A DNA stretch of 64,000 bases from positions 1 to 64,000 of the forward strand of contig CAIRBK010000024.1 in the NCBI GenBank assembly GCA_903876795.1, in the 5' to 3' direction. Under the pieces are notes generated by a model. It was not told where the DNA came from. It ran no database searches and was given only the letters and a program-made list of their open reading frames with translations. The position numbers and the translations under genes are program-made. This DNA comes from an uncultured Verrucomicrobiota bacterium. GTDB taxonomy: Bacteria; Verrucomicrobiota; Verrucomicrobiia; Opitutales; Opitutaceae. Below, in pieces: positions 1,539 through 9,879 of this stretch; positions within the stretch are counted from its first letter, which is position 1; the number at the start of each line of letters is the position of its first letter.

Positions 1539-4463
1539 TTAACGGCTGAAAACCGGGGTGACATCGAGGCCGGTCTTGGTGACCACGGCCGACTGCAGGA
1601 AGGCGGTGGCGGCGAGGTCGAGGAGATCCTCGGCTTTGAACCAAGGCCGGCTGCTAACGTAGACGATGTCCTTGGGCTGGAGCGCAAAGTCGGGGGACTT
1701 GGCGGCAAGGATGTCCGAGACGTTGATCACGAAGGTCTGCGGTTTTTTGAGCGAGCCGCGGATGACGAGCAGGCGTTTTTGCCAGGCGCGGTCGGAGAAC
1801 CCGCCGCGCACGGCCACGGCCTGGAGCACGCCGGCGTGAGGACCGTAGAGCAGGGGGCCGGGGGAGCGCACCTCGCCGAGCACAAAGACCTGCGCCTGTT
1901 CGCCCGGAGGGAAATAGAGGTAGTCGTCGGGCTCCAGGGCGATGTTCTGCGAGAGGTCGCCCTCGACGAAGAGCCGGTGCATATCCACGGGCAGGCGTTG
2001 ACCCTTGCGCGTGACGAAGCTGTTGGGCAAGTCGGCCTGGATGACCAGACTGCGGTCCACGACGCGAGTTTCCAGCCCCTGGGCCTGGGCCACGGCCTCG
2101 ACCAGGGTGGTCGGCCGGTTGAGGGGAAAGGCTCCGCGGCGGGTGACCGCGCCGAGCACATAGTAGCGCTTGCTCCGATACGCGGCGGGGCGGACGATCA
2201 CGTCGGGCGCGTTGCGGTATTTGGACAACTCGCGGTTCAGGGCGACGCGGAACTCGTCCACGGTGAGGCCGGCGGCCGGCACGTTTTCCGCCTCAAGGTA
2301 GCTTACTCGGCCGTCGGGACCGACCGGAACGGGCGGGGCGGTGTTGTCGATCGAGCGGCCGTAGACGCTCAGGTGAAGGAGGTCGCCGGGGCCGAGGGTG
2401 AGGTGCCGCTGCCAGTCGGCGCGGTTGGATGCGTCGGGCACGGAGAAGACCGACTCGGCGACCGGAGACGGGGCGCCCTCGACGGACTGGGCCGAGGCGG
2501 TGGCGCCCATCAGGCCGAGGGAGGCGGCGAGCACGGCGGAGCGGCGACCAAACCAGCGGGCGAAGAGGGGATGGCCGGCTTTGCCCGGCCGGCGGTTGAG
2601 GACGGCGCCGGCCAGATGGCAGCGGGCGTTGCGCAGGGTTTCGAGGTGTTCCAGCGCCTCGGCGGCCCGGGTGCGGCCGCTCTCGGCGAGCCAGACCACG
2701 TTGGGCATCTTCTCGGCGAGGAGGGCGGTCTCCGGGTCCGACATCGGCGGCAGATCGACCAGGATGACGATGTTGTCGATGGAGCGCCAGGAGTGCAGGG
2801 CGCGTTGCCATTGGCGGCGTTTTTCCAGGTCCCAGATCCAGCCGCCCGGCAGAGGGAGGTTTTCGGAGGGCCAGCGACCCGGTTCGGCACGTCGTTCAAG
2901 CAGGTGGCCGGGGTTGGCCACGACCATGGCGGTGAACTCAGGGGAACCCCAAGAGGGCCGGGTTATGGCGGTGGATTTGGAGTCGGTTTCGGCGTCGTCG
3001 CCGTCTGTCGAGATCACGGAGCCGTCGGCGGAGATGGTCAGCACGGTGAAGCCGCATTGGCGTGCGCAGCCGGCGAGCAGATTGATCCAGGTGGAGCGGC
3101 CCTCGCCCGAGCCTGCCGACGTGAAGCCGCACACGAGCCCCTGGTCCGGGGTGGTGACGAGGCGGTGGCGGAGAGCGGTCCAGGTGCGGAACGCCCAATG
3201 GGCCCGGCCGGCCGGGGTGAGGGCGTCGATGTCGCCCAGTTCGCCGACGAGCGGCAGGCCGGTGACGCGGGCCAGGTCGGAGCCCGTCTTCATCCGGTCG
3301 TCAAACAACTCGCATAGAACCGCCACTGTCATCGCCGCCATCGCGCCGAGAATACCGGCGGCGCAGGCGAGCACGCTGATGATCGTGCGCCGGTGGGCGC
3401 CGACCACGTTTTGGTGGGAGGCGGCTCCCATCAGGTGGAGGTAGCCGGGAGGGGCGTCGAGGAAGGGTTGCAGTGCGCGCTGCCGGGCGACGAGGCTTGC
3501 GTGGCGGCTTTCGAGGGAGGTGAGGGAGAGGACAAGGGCATCGTAACCGGTGCTCTGGTTGATGACGGGCTTCTCGGCGGGTATGCCGACGATGGCGCGG
3601 GTCACCTCGTTGGCAGTGGCGCCATCGGTCGGAGTCATCGTCTCGCGGAGCTGGGTCTCCAGCAGGGCCAGGCGCGTCTTTTGCTCGCGCACGAGCGGGT
3701 GCAGGTCGGTGTAGCGAGTCTGCAATTCGTCGAGTTGATCGCGGGCGGTCTGGATGCGGTCGTAGATACGGGCTGCGGTCGGGCTGTTTATTTGTTGGAT
3801 GACGGTCGAGGTGTCCGGCGCGGGCGAGGGTGGCGGTGTAATCGGGGGCAGGTCGCGCTGTTCCTCGATTTCAGCGAGGCGGAGCTTCACGCGGGCGCGG
3901 TCGGCCTCATTGTCGGCCAGTTGCCGCGTCAGGGAGAAAGCCGCCGCAGCCGCCTCGGCTTGCTGCAAGTCCCGGGTGAAGCCGGCGGCCTGCTCGCCGG
4001 CCAGGTTGGCGAGCGCGAGGGCGTCCTCGGGGGTTTCACCGGTGGCGGTCAGCGTGATAAGGGTGCTGTTGCGGTCCATGGTGAGCTTGATGCGTTTGCC
4101 CAGCTCGACGGCCGCAAGGGGAGGGTTCATCCGGGCTCCGGTCTGCTGCAACGCCTCCGGGGAGGAGATCATTCCGAAGAGCATCCCGGTGTCCAACGGC
4201 TGCGGACGGTAGTCTTCATTGGCCAGGGGTGAGTCGAGGCGGCTCAACTGAACCGAGACCGTGTGCCCGGGGCGGATGAGAGCGGCGGCGGCGACCAGGC
4301 CGATCACGGCGCTGGCCAGGGAGAAAAAAACGATCCAGCGCCAGCGGGCGAGAACTGCGCCCACGATGGGGAGAAAGGCGGCGGCACCGTTCGGAGCGGT
4401 GTTGACGGCCGGCGCGGGGAAACGGCGTTTGTCCGAGGGTGTGGCGTCGTTGTTTTCGTTCAT
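1539..4463 (-). CDS. Fused Wzz/Wzc-like chain-length protein, kinase-like domain and Wza-like export domain
   Basis: A 974-aa protein from the ATG at 4463; an in-frame ATG at 4514 would add 17 residues, and neither start has a clear Shine-Dalgarno. In order it has a membrane segment at about 43-63, a periplasmic Wzz region with coiled-coil stretches, a second membrane segment at about 361-384, and a BY-kinase-like cytoplasmic domain with a Walker A-like loop (SGEGRST, Arg456 where Lys is expected) and Walker B-like VILVDLPP. A signal-peptide-like segment (RRSAVLAASLG ending ATASAQ, Gln659) leads into a Wza-like Poly_export/SLBB domain to the end. Wzc and Wza are normally separate polypeptides of one export machine. 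The kinase may be inactive, and no C-terminal Tyr cluster is present. Confidence 0.88.
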   Translation of the reverse strand: MNENNDATPSDKRRFPAPAVNTAPNGAAAFLPIVGAVLARWRWIVFFSLASAVIGLVAAAALIRPGHTVSVQLSRLDSPLANEDYRPQPLDTGMLFGMISSPEALQQTGARMNPPLAAVELGKRIKLTMDRNSTLITLTATGETPEDALALANLAGEQAAGFTRDLQQAEAAAAAFSLTRQLADNEADRARVKLRLAEIEEQRDLPPITPPPSPAPDTSTVIQQINSPTAARIYDRIQTARDQLDELQTRYTDLHPLVREQKTRLALLETQLRETMTPTDGATANEVTRAIVGIPAEKPVINQSTGYDALVLSLTSLESRHASLVARQRALQPFLDAPPGYLHLMGAASHQNVVGAHRRTIISVLACAAGILGAMAAMTVAVLCELFDDRMKTGSDLARVTGLPLVGELGDIDALTPAGRAHWAFRTWTALRHRLVTTPDQGLVCGFTSAGSGEGRSTWINLLAGCARQCGFTVLTISADGSVISTDGDDAETDSKSTAITRPSWGSPEFTAMVVANPGHLLERRAEPGRWPSENLPLPGGWIWDLEKRRQWQRALHSWRSIDNIVILVDLPPMSDPETALLAEKMPNVVWLAESGRTRAAEALEHLETLRNARCHLAGAVLNRRPGKAGHPLFARWFGRRSAVLAASLGLMGATASAQSVEGAPSPVAESVFSVPDASNRADWQRHLTLGPGDLLHLSVYGRSIDNTAPPVPVGPDGRVSYLEAENVPAAGLTVDEFRVALNRELSKYRNAPDVIVRPAAYRSKRYYVLGAVTRRGAFPLNRPTTLVEAVAQAQGLETRVVDRSLVIQADLPNSFVTRKGQRLPVDMHRLFVEGDLSQNIALEPDDYLYFPPGEQAQVFVLGEVRSPGPLLYGPHAGVLQAVAVRGGFSDRAWQKRLLVIRGSLKKPQTFVINVSDILAAKSPDFALQPKDIVYVSSRPWFKAEDLLDLAATAFLQSAVVTKTGLDVTPVFSR

Positions 4464-4591: not shown

Positions 4592-5032
4592 TTACGGCGA
4601 GAAATGGTTGATCTGGAGCCATTCGACGAGGCGCTTGGCCATGTCGGTGAGCGCATCGAGATTACATGGTTTCACGAGGTAGGCGTGGGCGCCCAGATCG
4701 TAGGCGCGCTCGATATCCTCCGAGCGCATGGAACCGCTCAGGATGTAAACGGGCAGGCGCCGCAGCGAGGGTGGCTGGGTTTGCAGCCAGGCGAGCACGT
4801 CGAAGCCGCTTTTGCGCAGCATGGTCAAGTCGAGCAGCAGCACGGTGGGAAGGGGGAAGCGGTTTCGGTCCGCGTAGATGCCGTCGCCCCGCAGGTAGGC
4901 CATCGCCTCCTCGCCGTCGCGGGCGATCTCAAGCGGGCGGGAAAAGCCGGCGTGGCGAAAGGCGATCCTTATGAGATTCACGTCCGCCTCGCTGTCCTCG
5001 GCGATGAGCACGACGGGTTCCTGGGTGTTCAC
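4592..5032 (-). CDS. Single-domain response regulator (Rcp1-like receiver)
   Basis: A 146-aa stand-alone receiver domain. The acidic pocket (AEDSEAD, Glu12/Asp13), phospho-acceptor Asp68 in LLLDLTM, Ser99 in YILSGS and Lys121 in LVKP are all in place, so it should accept phosphate. The insert between the first strand and the phospho-site (LRGDGIYADRNRFPLP) is typical of the Rcp1 type that partners with phytochrome-like kinases. There is no output domain, so it probably acts by protein contact or as a phosphate relay. Its ATG overlaps the stop of the kinase gene at 5029-6198 by 4 nt, indicating translational coupling and a cognate pair. Confidence 0.92.
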   Translation of the reverse strand: MNTQEPVVLIAEDSEADVNLIRIAFRHAGFSRPLEIARDGEEAMAYLRGDGIYADRNRFPLPTVLLLDLTMLRKSGFDVLAWLQTQPPSLRRLPVYILSGSMRSEDIERAYDLGAHAYLVKPCNLDALTDMAKRLVEWLQINHFSP

Positions 5033-6198
5033 GCGGGGCGCTTTCCGGAGGCGGGGCGGGCGAGTTCTATCCAGAAGCGGCTTCCGCTGCCGGGCTCGGA
5101 GACGAGACCGACTCGGCCGCCCATGCGCAGCATGCCCTTCTGCACCACGGCGAGACCGATGCCGGTGCCCACATAGGCGGTGGTGTGCAGGCGTTTGAAC
5201 ACGCCGAAGATCTGGTCGTGAAATTCAGGGGGGATGCCGATGCCGTTGTCTTCGACCCAGAGACGCACCACGTTGTCCGGCCGCTCCTCGGCCCGGATGC
5301 GGACACGCGGCGGCTCCTTTCCGACGAACTTCACGGCGTTGCCCACGAGGTGGGAAATCACCTGCCGGAGCGTGGCCGGATGGGCCAGCACCTCCGGGAA
5401 AGGGGGGACGACCTCCAGGACGGCCCCGCTCGCCGAGATCTGCTCTTCGCAGGCTCCGAGCGCATTGCGCACGGCGGTTTCGAGGCTCACGGGTCCGAGA
5501 TCCATTTTCTCCTGGGTTACCCGGCTGAAGGCCAGCAGGTCGGCGAGCAGGTGGTCCATGGTCCGGGCGGCCGAGTCGATGAAGCCGGCGTATTCGCGCC
5601 CGCGTCCTCCGAGGCCCTGGGCGTGTTCCTCGAGCAGAAGCCTGGAAAAACCCTGCATGGTGCGAAGCGGCGCCTTTAAGTCATGGGCGATCGAATACAC
5701 GAAGGTCTCCAGTTGGGCGTTGCTGAGCCTCAGTTCGGCCGTGCGCAGTTGCACGGTGGTTTCCAGTTCGATTGTGTAGCGTGCCAGCTCCTCGCGGGTG
5801 CGGCGGGACTCGGAGTCGGCCTGCTTGCGCGAGGTGATGTCGCGCAGGCCCAATTGAATGACGCGGCGGCCCTCCTCCTCGCGCAGGCCGCCGACGATCT
5901 CGACCTCTATCAGGCGCCCGTCCTTGGCCAGGAGGGGGAGATGCTCGCAGCGGATGTGACCGGATCGAAGCAGTTCTGCGAAGGCCGTGCGGGCGGAGGC
6001 GGCGTTATCGGGGGGGCCCAGCGCATCAAAGGTCCTGCCGATGATTTCTCCGGCTTCGAGCCCGATCCAGCGGAGAAGCCGCGGATTGGCGTCGGTGATG
6101 CGGCGCGTGTCCGCGTCCAGTATCAGGATACCGTCTTCGGCGCAGTCGAAGAGCCGCCGGTAGCGGGACTCTTCAGGCAAGGGTGGGGCCGATATCAT
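5029..6198 (-). CDS. PAS-domain sensor histidine kinase
   Basis: A 389-aa cytoplasmic histidine kinase with no membrane segment. A PAS domain spans about residues 10-125 (FDCAEDGILILDAD, then IQLGLRDITSRKQ), followed by a short coiled coil. The HisKA H-box has His172 (YSIAHDLKAPLRTMQGF), and the HATPase domain has DNGIGIP and GTGIGLAVVQ boxes. The SIAHDLKAPLR style is that of phytochrome-type kinases, which pair with Rcp1-like receivers such as the overlapping downstream gene. The signal sensed by the PAS domain is unknown. Its position inside the exopolysaccharide gene run suggests control of polymer production. Confidence 0.92.
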   Translation of the reverse strand: MISAPPLPEESRYRRLFDCAEDGILILDADTRRITDANPRLLRWIGLEAGEIIGRTFDALGPPDNAASARTAFAELLRSGHIRCEHLPLLAKDGRLIEVEIVGGLREEEGRRVIQLGLRDITSRKQADSESRRTREELARYTIELETTVQLRTAELRLSNAQLETFVYSIAHDLKAPLRTMQGFSRLLLEEHAQGLGGRGREYAGFIDSAARTMDHLLADLLAFSRVTQEKMDLGPVSLETAVRNALGACEEQISASGAVLEVVPPFPEVLAHPATLRQVISHLVGNAVKFVGKEPPRVRIRAEERPDNVVRLWVEDNGIGIPPEFHDQIFGVFKRLHTTAYVGTGIGLAVVQKGMLRMGGRVGLVSEPGSGSRFWIELARPASGKRPA

Positions 6199-6279
6199 GG
6201 GCGTGGAAGGGCGGAGGGCCCGCGCCCAAGATAGGCCCGGCGCCCAAAGACGTCAGTGGGGTCGGAGCCCCAAGCCGGG

Positions 6280-6909
6280 TCACCCGACCAGCTTGTTTTG
6301 GATCGCGTAGTGGGTGAGTTCCGAGTTGTTGCGCAGCCCGGTTTTTTCGATGATGCGCGTGCGGTAGGTGCTCACGGTTTTCACGCTGAGCGAGAGTTCG
6401 CGGGCGATTTCGCCAACCGTCTTGCCCGACGCGATCAGGCGGAGCACGAGGAACTCCCGGTCCGAGAGACGCTCATGGGGGGAACTCTGCACGTCCATCG
6501 CGAGGTAGGAGGCCATTTTTTCCGCCAGCGCGGGGCTTACATAACGGCCACCGGACACGACTTTTTTCACGGCACCGACAAGTTCGGCGGGGGCGCTTTC
6601 CTTGGTCATGTAGCCGGAGGCGCCGATTTTGAGCATCCGCACGGCAAACTGGTCCTCGGGGTGCATGCTCAGCATGAGGACGGGCAGTTTGGGGCGGGTC
6701 TTTTTGATGGCCTTGAGCACGTCGAGGCCGTTCTGGCCCGGCATGGTGATGTCGAGCACGAGCACGTCCCACGGTTCCTTCCAGGCGAGGTCGATGGCTT
6801 GCTGTCCGGTGCACGCCTCGCCGAACACGGCCTGTTTGAACTCGGCGGCCAGAACCTGTTTGAGCCCCTGGCGAACGACGGAGTGGTCGTCGGCGATGAG
6901 GATTCTCAC
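6280..6909 (-). CDS. LuxR/NarL-family response regulator
   Basis: A 209-aa two-domain regulator starting at GTG 6909-6907; the reading frame stays open upstream, but homology begins at VRILIADDHS. The receiver has paired acidic residues ADD, the phospho-Asp in VLVLDITMPG, Ser in MLSMHP and Lys in YMTKES. The C-terminal LuxR-type HTH spans the last ~65 residues (LSDREFLVLRLIASGKT, IARELSLSVKTVSTYRTRI). Its GTG overlaps the stop of the receiver-kinase gene at 6906-8006 by 4 nt, so the two are almost certainly cognate. It probably activates or represses nearby polysaccharide genes, but no target site could be assigned. Confidence 0.92.
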   Translation of the reverse strand: MRILIADDHSVVRQGLKQVLAAEFKQAVFGEACTGQQAIDLAWKEPWDVLVLDITMPGQNGLDVLKAIKKTRPKLPVLMLSMHPEDQFAVRMLKIGASGYMTKESAPAELVGAVKKVVSGGRYVSPALAEKMASYLAMDVQSSPHERLSDREFLVLRLIASGKTVGEIARELSLSVKTVSTYRTRIIEKTGLRNNSELTHYAIQNKLVG

Positions 6910-8006
6910 GGGGTCCTCCCCGGGAGCGGCTCCGCCGAGGCGAGCGGGATGCCGACCGTCACCGTCGTGCCGAGGCCGGGGCGGCCGGCGAAGACGACCT
7001 CGCCGAGCAGGAGGGCGGCGCGCTCGCGGATGCCGATCAGCCCGATCGATTTGTCGCCGGCGACCTCCGCTTCGGAGATGCCGCGACCGTTGTCGGTGAC
7101 CCTGAGCACCAGACGTTCGTTTTCGACGCCGAGAAAAACCTCCACCCGGGAGGCCGATGCGTGGCGGATGATGTTGGTGAGGATTTCCTGAAATATGCGG
7201 AAAAACGTGGTCGTGAAACGTTGGTTCCAGAGGGTGTCCGCCACCGTGGTTGTGGTTGCGCAGACGATGCCGGTCTTCTGTTGAAACTCCTGGGCCTGCC
7301 ATTCGATGGCCGCAGCCAGGCCGAGGTTGTCGAGGATGCCGGGGCGCAGTTCGGTGGAGATGCGACGCACGGTCTGGATGGTGGCGTCGATGCAGTCGGA
7401 CAAGGCGTGGGCGCGGCCGCGCAGCCCACGCGAATGCTTGGGCAGCCGCGAGATCAGCGAGGCGACGTCGAGCTTGAGACCGGTGAGGGCCTGGCCGAGT
7501 TCGTCGTGAACCTGGCGGGAGATGCGGATGCGCTCCTCTTCGCGCACATGCTGGAGATAGGCGCTGAGGGCGCGGAGCTGTTCGTTGGATTGCTGGAGTT
7601 TTTTTTCGGCGGCGCAGCGTTCGCGGCGCTCGGCGGTCTCGCGCAACGCCCGCCGGACGGAGGGACCGAGCCGGGCGAGGTGTTTTTTGAGCACGTAGTC
7701 GGTCGCGCCGATCTTGAGGGTTTCGATGGCCACGTCCTCGCCGAGGGTGCCGGTCAAGAAAATGAACGGGATGTCGGGAGCCAGGCACTGGGCGATACGG
7801 AGGGCGTCGATGCCGTCGAAGGCGGGCAGGCTGTAGTCGGACAGCACGAGATCGGGCGTGTGTGCGGCGAGTTCCTGCTCGAAATCGCGCCGGGTTTCGA
7901 CCCGTTGTGCGTCGAACTTCAAGCCGGAGGCGGTCAACGCGTGTTTCGCGAGTTCGGCGTGGGCCGGGTTGTCCTCCAGCATGAGGATGCGCAGAAGTTC
8001 GTTCAT
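6906..8006 (-). CDS. Receiver-HisKA_3 hybrid histidine kinase
   Basis: A 366-aa protein in which an N-terminal CheY-like receiver (LRILMLEDNPAHAEL, DLVLSDYSLPAFDG, KIGATDYVLKK) precedes a NarL-type kinase. The HisKA_3 dimerisation helix contains EERIRISRQVHDELGQAL with the phospho-His in QVHDE, and the ATPase domain shows FRIFQEILTNIIRHA and VTDNGRGI. With the receiver first and no membrane segment, it is likely regulated by phosphorylation from another kinase rather than by an external ligand. Its stop overlaps the GTG of the LuxR regulator, and its ATG overlaps the stop of the GT4 gene upstream, placing it inside the polysaccharide operon. Confidence 0.92.
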   Translation of the reverse strand: MNELLRILMLEDNPAHAELAKHALTASGLKFDAQRVETRRDFEQELAAHTPDLVLSDYSLPAFDGIDALRIAQCLAPDIPFIFLTGTLGEDVAIETLKIGATDYVLKKHLARLGPSVRRALRETAERRERCAAEKKLQQSNEQLRALSAYLQHVREEERIRISRQVHDELGQALTGLKLDVASLISRLPKHSRGLRGRAHALSDCIDATIQTVRRISTELRPGILDNLGLAAAIEWQAQEFQQKTGIVCATTTTVADTLWNQRFTTTFFRIFQEILTNIIRHASASRVEVFLGVENERLVLRVTDNGRGISEAEVAGDKSIGLIGIRERAALLLGEVVFAGRPGLGTTVTVGIPLASAEPLPGRTP

Positions 8007-9223
8007 GGAGGTGCGGCTTCGCGGACGTCGTGCGGACGGGCAGGGGCCGGGGATGAATCCACGGCGCGATACCTGGAACCGGCGCGAAGGCGTGCGTCGG
8101 CATAGGCCGACAACGTCTCTCCGGCGGCGCGGCGCCAGTCGAACCGGGCGGCGTGTGCCAGACCCCGAGTGCGCAGGGATTGGCGAAGCGTTTCGTCGCC
8201 CGCCAACAGCGCTAGGCGGGCGGCGATTTCTTCGGTGTTGTCGGGATCGACCGGCAGGGCGGCGTCGCCGACCACCTCGGCCAGCGCGCCGCGGGTGGAC
8301 GAGAGCACCGGGCAGCCGCAGGCCATCGCCTCGACGGGGGGCAGGCCGAAGCCCTCGAAGAGCGACGGAAAGACAAAGACCTCGGCCGCGCGATAGAGGC
8401 CCGGCAGTTCGGCGTCGGGCACGAAGCCGAGGGTGCGAATATCGGTGTTGAAAGGGGAGCGGCGGATCAACTCGTGGACGACGGCGGCGCCGGACCAGTT
8501 GCCGCCGGCCAGGACGAGTTGCCAGGGCGAGCCGGTGGAAGTCTTGAAACTCTCGAACGCTGCAATCAGCCGCGAGTGGTTTTTGGCCGGGTGCTCGATG
8601 CGGGCGACGTAGAGGAAAAACGGTGCGAACAGGCCGCGGCGATAGGCGGCGTCCACGCGGGCCACGTCGCGGCCCTGCGGATGAAACCGGTCGTGATCGA
8701 TGCCGTTGAGGACGACCCGCGTACGAGAGGCGGCGGCCGGCCCCATGAAGGTGGCGATGTCCCGAGAAGTGGACCGGCTGACGGCCAGCACCTCGCTCTG
8801 CCGGCGGACCAGTCGCGGCACGATGGCTCGACCGTAAAACATCCGCAGGGGATCATATTTGCCCGGCATCCGGAAAGGCGCGAGGTCGTGAATGGTCGCG
8901 ACGAGGGCGCAGGGCCGGGCCCAGAGCAGACGCCGGTAACTCGGCACATGCAGCACGTCGAGACCGTGTTTTTTCGCAAGCCGGGGCAGGACGCATTGAT
9001 GCCAGAAGATGTCGAGGGGGGCGGGACGGAAGCACTCAGAGACCGTGATAATCCGCGCGCGGTCGCTCGCAAAGGCGAAGAGGGGCAGGTCTTCCGCGAG
9101 CACGAAGAGGACGAGCTCGTCGCGGCCGATCTGGTCGAGGAGGGCGCCCACGAGGGAGAGCACGTAGCGGCCCACTCCGGAGCGCCCGCGTTGAATGACG
9201 GAGGTGGAGATGCCGATTTTCAC
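8003..9223 (-). CDS. Glycosyltransferase family 4 (GT-B)
   Basis: A 406-aa GT-B glycosyltransferase. The N-terminal domain opens with MKIGISTSVIQRGRSGVGRY, the usual GT4 start with a Gly-rich acceptor loop. The C-terminal donor domain contains LYVARIEHPAKNH and the EX7E motif in FPSLFEGFGLPPVEAMACG. Such enzymes transfer a sugar from a nucleotide-activated donor to a growing lipid-linked oligosaccharide on the cytoplasmic face. It overlaps both neighbours by 4 nt (tandem STAS protein before it, hybrid kinase after it). Sugar specificity cannot be read from sequence. The last ~20 residues are Ala/Pro/Arg-rich and probably disordered. Confidence 0.92.
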   Translation of the reverse strand: MKIGISTSVIQRGRSGVGRYVLSLVGALLDQIGRDELVLFVLAEDLPLFAFASDRARIITVSECFRPAPLDIFWHQCVLPRLAKKHGLDVLHVPSYRRLLWARPCALVATIHDLAPFRMPGKYDPLRMFYGRAIVPRLVRRQSEVLAVSRSTSRDIATFMGPAAASRTRVVLNGIDHDRFHPQGRDVARVDAAYRRGLFAPFFLYVARIEHPAKNHSRLIAAFESFKTSTGSPWQLVLAGGNWSGAAVVHELIRRSPFNTDIRTLGFVPDAELPGLYRAAEVFVFPSLFEGFGLPPVEAMACGCPVLSSTRGALAEVVGDAALPVDPDNTEEIAARLALLAGDETLRQSLRTRGLAHAARFDWRRAAGETLSAYADARLRAGSRYRAVDSSPAPARPHDVREAAPP

Positions 9224-9879
9224 GGGCCGGGATGGTTCAGCAGGTGTTCGAGTCGGGCGTGAGCGAGGACATTGCGGATGGCTGGCCGGGCCTGGGGGAA
9301 CCAGATGCGGCGGCCGTTTTTAAGCGCCCAGCGGTGAAGGCGCAGCATGATCTCGGCCCCGGCGCTGTCGATGAAGGCCAGTCGCGAGAGGTTGACCACA
9401 TGGGTGCGACGCGGGGGGCGCTCCGTCGCGGAGAAGTGGCCCAGGGTGAGGGACCACACCCATTCGGCATTGGCGGCGGTGATTTCACCCTGCCAGGCAA
9501 GCGTGCAGCCTCCGATGCAGGGAGGGATGACCGACTCGTCGCCTGGCATGGAACCGCCGGGGGGGCTGCGGCGGCCGCCGGGGTCGAGAACCGTGAAGCA
9601 ATCGGTCAATCCCAGCAGATCGAGGGCCGAGCGCACGGTCGGGCTGGGGTTGAAGAGGACCAGTCGGAGGCCGTGCGCGCGCAACCGCCGCCGCCACTGG
9701 AGGAGCAATGCCGCCCCCGTGCTGTCGATGAAACGCACGCCGGACAGGTCCAACTGGCAGTGTTCGCCGGTTCCGAGGGTCTCGGTGAAAAAGGCCCGCA
9801 GTTCACCGAGCACGGACGCGCAAAGGTCGCCATTCACCCGGACGTCGCACCAGTCGGGAGGTCGTGTCGAGGACACCAC
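9220..9879 (-). CDS. Tandem STAS-domain protein
   Basis: A 219-aa protein made of two STAS domains. Each has the anti-anti-sigma-type loop: VRFIDSTGAALLL in the first half and LAFIDSAGAEIML in the second, with the conserved Ser that is phosphorylated in SpoIIAA/RsbV proteins. There is no membrane part and no partner kinase gene alongside. It sits between two glycosyltransferase genes; its 5' end overlaps the WecG-type gene by 77 nt from the ATG at 9879, or 35 nt if the GTG at 9837 is used, and its 3' end overlaps the GT4 gene by 4 nt. It may tune polymer synthesis by partner binding. Confidence 0.85.
   Translation of the reverse strand: MVSSTRPPDWCDVRVNGDLCASVLGELRAFFTETLGTGEHCQLDLSGVRFIDSTGAALLLQWRRRLRAHGLRLVLFNPSPTVRSALDLLGLTDCFTVLDPGGRRSPPGGSMPGDESVIPPCIGGCTLAWQGEITAANAEWVWSLTLGHFSATERPPRRTHVVNLSRLAFIDSAGAEIMLRLHRWALKNGRRIWFPQARPAIRNVLAHARLEHLLNHPGP

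Follow-up and report, generated by a model that had tools for sequence, protein, structure and literature searches.

The 64,000-nucleotide window, which is the whole stretch of DNA analysed here and comes from an uncultured Opitutaceae bacterium, encodes on its reverse strand a single protein in which a Wzc-like polysaccharide co-polymerase (PCP) is followed by a Wza-like export protein (OPX), with an internal signal-peptide-like segment between the two. The coordinates of the fused gene and its parts are collected in Table 1; an alternative upstream GTG start would lengthen the product to 991 aa. Complete fused PCP-OPX frames occur at 18 loci in 17 of the family's 252 genomes, counting that of the window, with lengths of 943–1187 aa, and although most loci come from draft metagenome-assembled genomes, one complete frame lies in a genome assembled as a single contig (G189). 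In alignment A2, the window protein is 30–58% identical to the other 25 fused rows. The fusion is old and has been kept in evolution, which bears out the reading of the initial annotation that a Wzc-like and a Wza-like protein are fused across a signal-peptide-like joint. Its parts are known, and the covalent arrangement is new and recurrent. No description of a PCP-OPX fusion was found in the literature searched, which comprised titles, abstract openings and passages, with most subscription journals outside it. We predict that the chain is probably a polyprotein from which signal peptidase I releases the OPX, leaving a PCP with three helices.

Architecture of the fused protein

The co-polymerase half resembles Wzc and other PCP-2a proteins (7nhr, 9r64) in having two predicted membrane segments around a helical periplasmic part, followed by a domain, predicted to be cytoplasmic, with a BY-kinase-like fold that is recognized both by profile and by fold. 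A profile built from 26 fused proteins finds, on this side, PslE (5e-18; 9v6l), Wzc (3e-10; 7nhr) and the CapA/B kinase (5e-10; 4jmp). At E ≤0.01 it reaches 25 distinct PDB sequences in all, including a keratin that is surely a chance match. PslE, the PCP of Psl exopolysaccharide, is thus the best solved match to the fused PCP part. Its OPX partner PslD is a separate protein, unlike the fused OPX. Pfam gives no family above cut-off on residues 1–632, where Wzz also misses its cut-off, and the NCBIfam chain-length and autokinase models match the N-terminal part only far below theirs; the close split relative L127 does reach the Wzz family, at 28.5 bits against a cut-off of 25.5.

An AlphaFold2 model of the window protein, made from 26 sequences, has a mean pLDDT of 77 and a pTM of 0.40, at which the placement of the two halves relative to each other carries no meaning. 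Besides the two helices and the Rossmann-type domain of the PCP part, the model contains a short helix at 632–648, the OPX domains and a C-terminal helix. Searched with Foldseek, it matches Wzc (9r64_I) at 1.3e-22, with large rmsd values. The structure prediction of residues 600–974 that the initial annotation had proposed is covered by this model, in which the OPX domains match a Wza chain (9r68_A) at 1.9e-19, again with a large rmsd.

The kinase-like domain has the fold of a kinase and looks like a pseudokinase, because an arginine replaces the Walker A lysine, the Walker A′ aspartate is missing and the tyrosine tail is absent. In the window protein, Walker A reads TSAGSGEGRST (448–458), with Arg456 at the lysine position, and no tyrosine occurs across residues 561–690, where a tyrosine-rich C-terminal tail was sought. 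Among 37 fused rows the lysine position holds R in 29, K in 6, C in one and A in one, and the first position of Walker A′ is aspartate in none of the 37. The same genome supplies a control in its two further Poly_export genes, on C80 (L182) and C84 (L183), each of which adjoins a separate PCP; these PCPs carry GEGKS/GEGKT, DCDLR and each 8 tyrosines in the last 40 residues. An hhalign comparison of the window PCP part with a separate PCP of this genome spans 518 columns, over which GEGKT becomes GEGRS and the Walker A′ DCD is lost. On this point the initial annotation needs correcting: the domain that it called kinase-like looks like a pseudokinase. We also observe that the Walker A lysine (GEGKS/T) is kept in one early fused branch (L115, L120, L121, L123, L124, L170), in which the Walker A′ aspartate is absent.

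Relative to Wzc, the fused protein carries the OPX in the place of the tyrosine tail. BY pseudokinases have been described in PCP systems, namely EcpK/EpsV, HfsA/B and single chains of PCP and pseudokinase, in which a kinase-like fold without catalytic motifs lies beside or joined to the PCP; as far as the available part of that account goes, these proteins are described without an OPX part (PMC12004946).

On the OPX side, Pfam places Poly_export, SLBB_2 (765–850) and SLBB (859–903) above cut-off, the combination of Poly_export with SLBB that marks OPX proteins, and the 26-protein profile finds solved Wza at 8e-34 (9r60). The likeness to Wza and other OPX proteins (2j58, 9r60) extends over most of Wza; the difference is that the fused OPX is the C-terminal part of its partner, in the same frame as the PCP and behind an internal signal of the signal-peptidase-I type. 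The C-terminal helix, a candidate for the outer-membrane helix that marks class 1 OPX proteins, is weakly amphipathic, with a helical moment of just 0.15–0.29 along most of its length. About 78% of class 1 OPX proteins are lipoproteins according to the part of the survey available (PMC9603273), and no lipoprotein signal for the fused OPX is present at the joint. Directly downstream of the fused gene lies a separate OPX paralogue, and most loci examined, whether fused or split, likewise contain a second OPX frame next to the first, which points to a channel built from two OPX types.

Table 1 Features of the fused gene and its downstream neighbour in the window.
Feature	Coordinates	Strand	Basis
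Fused PCP-OPX gene, 974 aa from ATG, plus stop	1539..4463	-	Orthologous complete frames in 17 family genomes including the window
Wzc-like co-polymerase part, residues 1–632	2568..4463	-	Profile (PslE, Wzc, CapA/B); Foldseek (Wzc); hhalign
First membrane helix (predicted), residues 41–62	4278..4343	-	Structure model
Helix with the second membrane segment (predicted), residues 358–386	3306..3392	-	Structure model
Cytoplasmic kinase-like (Rossmann) domain, residues 394–623	2595..3284	-	Model, profile, hhalign
Internal signal-peptide-like segment, residues 633–658 (LFARWFGRRSAVLAASLGLMGATASA), predicted cut before Q659	2490..2567	-	Model, site count, split relatives
Wza-like OPX part, residues 659–974 (mature export protein if cut)	1542..2489	-	Pfam, profile, Foldseek
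Poly_export domain, residues 687–758	2190..2405	-	Pfam
C-terminal helix, residues 944–967 (candidate outer-membrane helix)	1563..1634	-	Structure model
Second, separate OPX gene, 367 aa	423..1526	-	Lipoprotein-type signal (LAGC), Pfam

The neighbouring genes are consistent with a polysaccharide locus: two glycosyltransferases, a WecG/TagA-type transferase and a Wzy_C/O-antigen-ligase-type protein are encoded within 22 kb. Upstream of it on the same strand (4592–9879, reverse) lie genes for a response regulator, sensor kinases, a glycosyltransferase and a STAS-domain protein. Near the locus of another genome (G002), two 534-aa frames with identical first 70 residues (L184:2255-3859 and L184:7609-9213) perhaps belong to a mobile element.

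The segment at the joint

In the fused proteins the joint lies between the last kinase-like strand (..GAVLN..) and the OPX. The window segment has the features of a signal peptidase I substrate, with a basic n-region (RWFGRR, residues 636–641), a core in the range of 10–15 residues and small residues at −3 and −1 (ATASA, 654–658, then Q659). The model places here a 17-residue helix (632–648), followed by disorder or low confidence at 650–674, across the cut site. After removal of 10 near-copy rows, 41 fused rows remained for counting, of which two (G012p and L114) are two contigs of one genome. Of these 41 rows, 38 have a strict [AVSTLI]xA site after the core, a rule loose enough for Ala-rich segments that shuffles still give 28.4 (sd 2.74; 1 of 2000 as high). 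Among the split OPX rows, 27 of 30 have such a site (shuffles 18.0, sd 2.46; 0 of 2000). A looser site is found in 41/41 fused and 29/30 split rows; the fused rows without the strict form are L118, L123 and L125. The median uncharged run is 14 in fused and split rows alike, and the net charge of the n-region is positive in all rows except one of each set.

The first membrane segment (TM1) served as a control, with a strict site in 27 of 65 rows (shuffles 20.3, sd 3.4; 72 of 2000), so that its ends too lie slightly above chance, and with an uncharged run of 19. Compared within 35 fused proteins, the internal segment has a run of 15 residues and a mean hydropathy of 1.55, against 20 and 1.84 for TM1 and 22 and 2.15 for TM2, although both controls are blurred by a few misplaced picks (e.g. 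G165, G118b, L109, L139, L149). In the split relatives the OPX opens with a signal peptide of its own at the place of the internal segment, for example MKKRSLLWLAPFFLLLGLACQTAPA in L133, where the cut precedes AD. The internal segment is the equivalent of these N-terminal signal peptides.

The linkers, measured in 38 fused rows, are 24–67 residues long. Their median of 38.5 exceeds that of all split rows (30, p 0.004), and the difference vanishes when the comparison is with nearer split rows (34, p 0.46); longer linkers were accordingly rejected as a sign of tethering. The residue directly after the strict cut site is a glutamine in 19 of the 41 fused rows (2487–2489 in the window) and in 9 of the 30 split ones, a pattern that recalls the Q-rule described for signal peptidase I substrates of Bacteroidetes in the available part of PMC5837995.

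Fused and separate genes among relatives

The initial annotation had proposed searching genomes for the same domain order, and the family survey found 31 matches to the fused profile among its 252 genomes. Beyond the 17 with complete fused frames, three (G012, G250, G069) have an open joint in a frame that ends at a contig edge, and in G069 the PCP part also contains a TAG upstream of the joint, adjoining the contig end. PCP and OPX are separate frames in four genomes (G060, G156, G260, G262), and the remaining seven show one part only or an ambiguous state. In the genus of the window the locus is present in 6 of 13 genomes and is thus patchily distributed. An order-wide draw of 223 genomes gave 18 matches that, classified from the table alone, comprise 5 fused loci, 9 with separate frames side by side, 1 on two contigs and 3 with OPX only. 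A plasmid search matched 78 records, none with any place covering 80% of the query, and the ten matches listed all fall within the OPX part.

A scan of one genome per species, made blind to phylum, gave 194 relatives, the best 80 of which were classified: 31 loci are fused, 28 consist of two genes and 21 have no PCP frame found near the OPX. Among the 31, six frames end at a contig edge and one (L111) lacks its N-terminal half. Of these 80 records, 78 carry an organism name, in every case from the Verrucomicrobiota, and the remaining two bear just the title 'bacterium'. In 11 of the 28 split loci the two genes share 4 bases, an ATGA in which the OPX starts and the PCP stops. The possibility raised by the initial annotation that close relatives carry two reading frames at this point does not hold, as the nearest relatives are fused and separate frames occur in more distant ones only.

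A tree built from 69 OPX domains, 39 of them from fused loci and 30 from split ones, requires 7 changes between the two states, 5 of them forced by well-supported branches; bootstrap trees give 6–7, and shuffled labels a mean of 22.7, with 0 of 500 as low. A single fusion event is ruled out, since the tree requires 7 changes and no bootstrap tree has one. For this question the tree is unrooted, so gain and loss of the fusion read alike, and with about 7 changes the covalent link has been gained or lost while the signal peptide stays. The unusual single-chain architecture that the initial annotation pointed out is real; it is not unique to the window genome, and it has alternated with two genes several times. 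Three split loci (L127, L129, L144) nest among the fused ones and their PCPs retain the fused-type ..RW.. tail, which hints at secondary fission. The OPX of these three (L127:2174-3814, L129:2-1912, L144:7361-9514) also have an extra region of about 100 residues between signal peptide and Poly_export, mutually alike as judged by eye and without a Pfam name.

Proposed processing of the chain and its meaning

In the mechanism that we favour, the Wzc-like co-polymerase, residues 1–632, would be the first part to enter the inner membrane, which it would cross with two helices, leaving one stretch in the periplasm and the pseudokinase domain in the cytoplasm. The segment 633–658 would then serve as a second, late signal peptide and direct the export of the OPX part to the periplasm by the Sec route, with cleavage by signal peptidase I between Ala658 and Gln659. 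The co-polymerase would be left with a third membrane segment where the tyrosine tail usually stands, and a free OPX of 316 residues (~34 kDa), made one-to-one with its partner and next to it, would join the export channel. Such a route has a precedent in the cytochrome b-c1 precursor FbcH of Bradyrhizobium, one chain that holds two subunits of a membrane complex and is cut by signal peptidase at an internal signal peptide. FbcH belongs to a respiratory complex, and no homology to the fused PCP-OPX is claimed.

Of the two outcomes that the initial annotation had offered, the cut polyprotein is the better prediction. The other, in which the segment stays in place as a third membrane helix and the protein forms one covalent envelope-spanning channel from the inner membrane to the OPX ring, we consider unlikely. 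TM1 and TM2 of these proteins are longer and more hydrophobic than the segment, which resembles the signal peptides of split relatives in run length, charge and cut site, and the relatives with separate genes mean that a covalent link is dispensable there. Against this, the strict cut site is absent from three fused rows, and each of the 38 linkers measured is long enough. A linker spans 3.4 Å per residue. As the Wzc periplasmic part is reported to reach about 60 Å in the available part of PMC9601211, even the shortest fused linker could bridge this distance, which makes a tether without cleavage physically feasible. One continuous channel of Wza and Wzc octamers is also reported in the part of PMC12881504 available. 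It is likewise doubtful, and to much the same degree, that the chain remains uncut or is cut late under regulation, such that the covalent link and a dead kinase replace the phosphorylation-driven assembly cycle of Wzc.

That the OPX is made in addition from a start codon of its own within the gene is very unlikely. Scattered ATG, GTG or TTG codons do lie upstream of the core in 26 of 30 genes, with a top Shine-Dalgarno-like score of 5 of 6 (L170), but their place is not conserved across the window and 29 fused loci; in the window the only one is a GTG within the hydrophobic core, L096 and L114 lack such codons, and the frame is open across the joint in 17 family genomes. Least probable of all is a sequencing or assembly error, or a decaying gene, in which a stop was lost between two ordinary genes. 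The dominance of draft genomes, the TAG near a contig end in G069, the half frame of L111 and the six cuts at contig ends would fit such an origin, which is opposed by the complete frames, one of them in a single contig, and by domains and a joint that are conserved at the identities given above. For the family, assembly error is refuted by independent genomes, and with it the lost stop codon that the initial annotation had named among its possible refutations.

For one export channel to form, PCP and OPX must meet across the periplasm, and the frequency and ratio at which they do so are under active study. A natural fusion sets the PCP:OPX ratio at synthesis, and its split relatives adjoin it in the tree. 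Together, the fused and split forms provide a ready test of whether signal peptidase acts on a buried signal in a bacterial polyprotein. As the kinase part looks dead, these proteins, which would serve in polysaccharide export, also raise the question of how channels assemble when tyrosine phosphorylation is missing.
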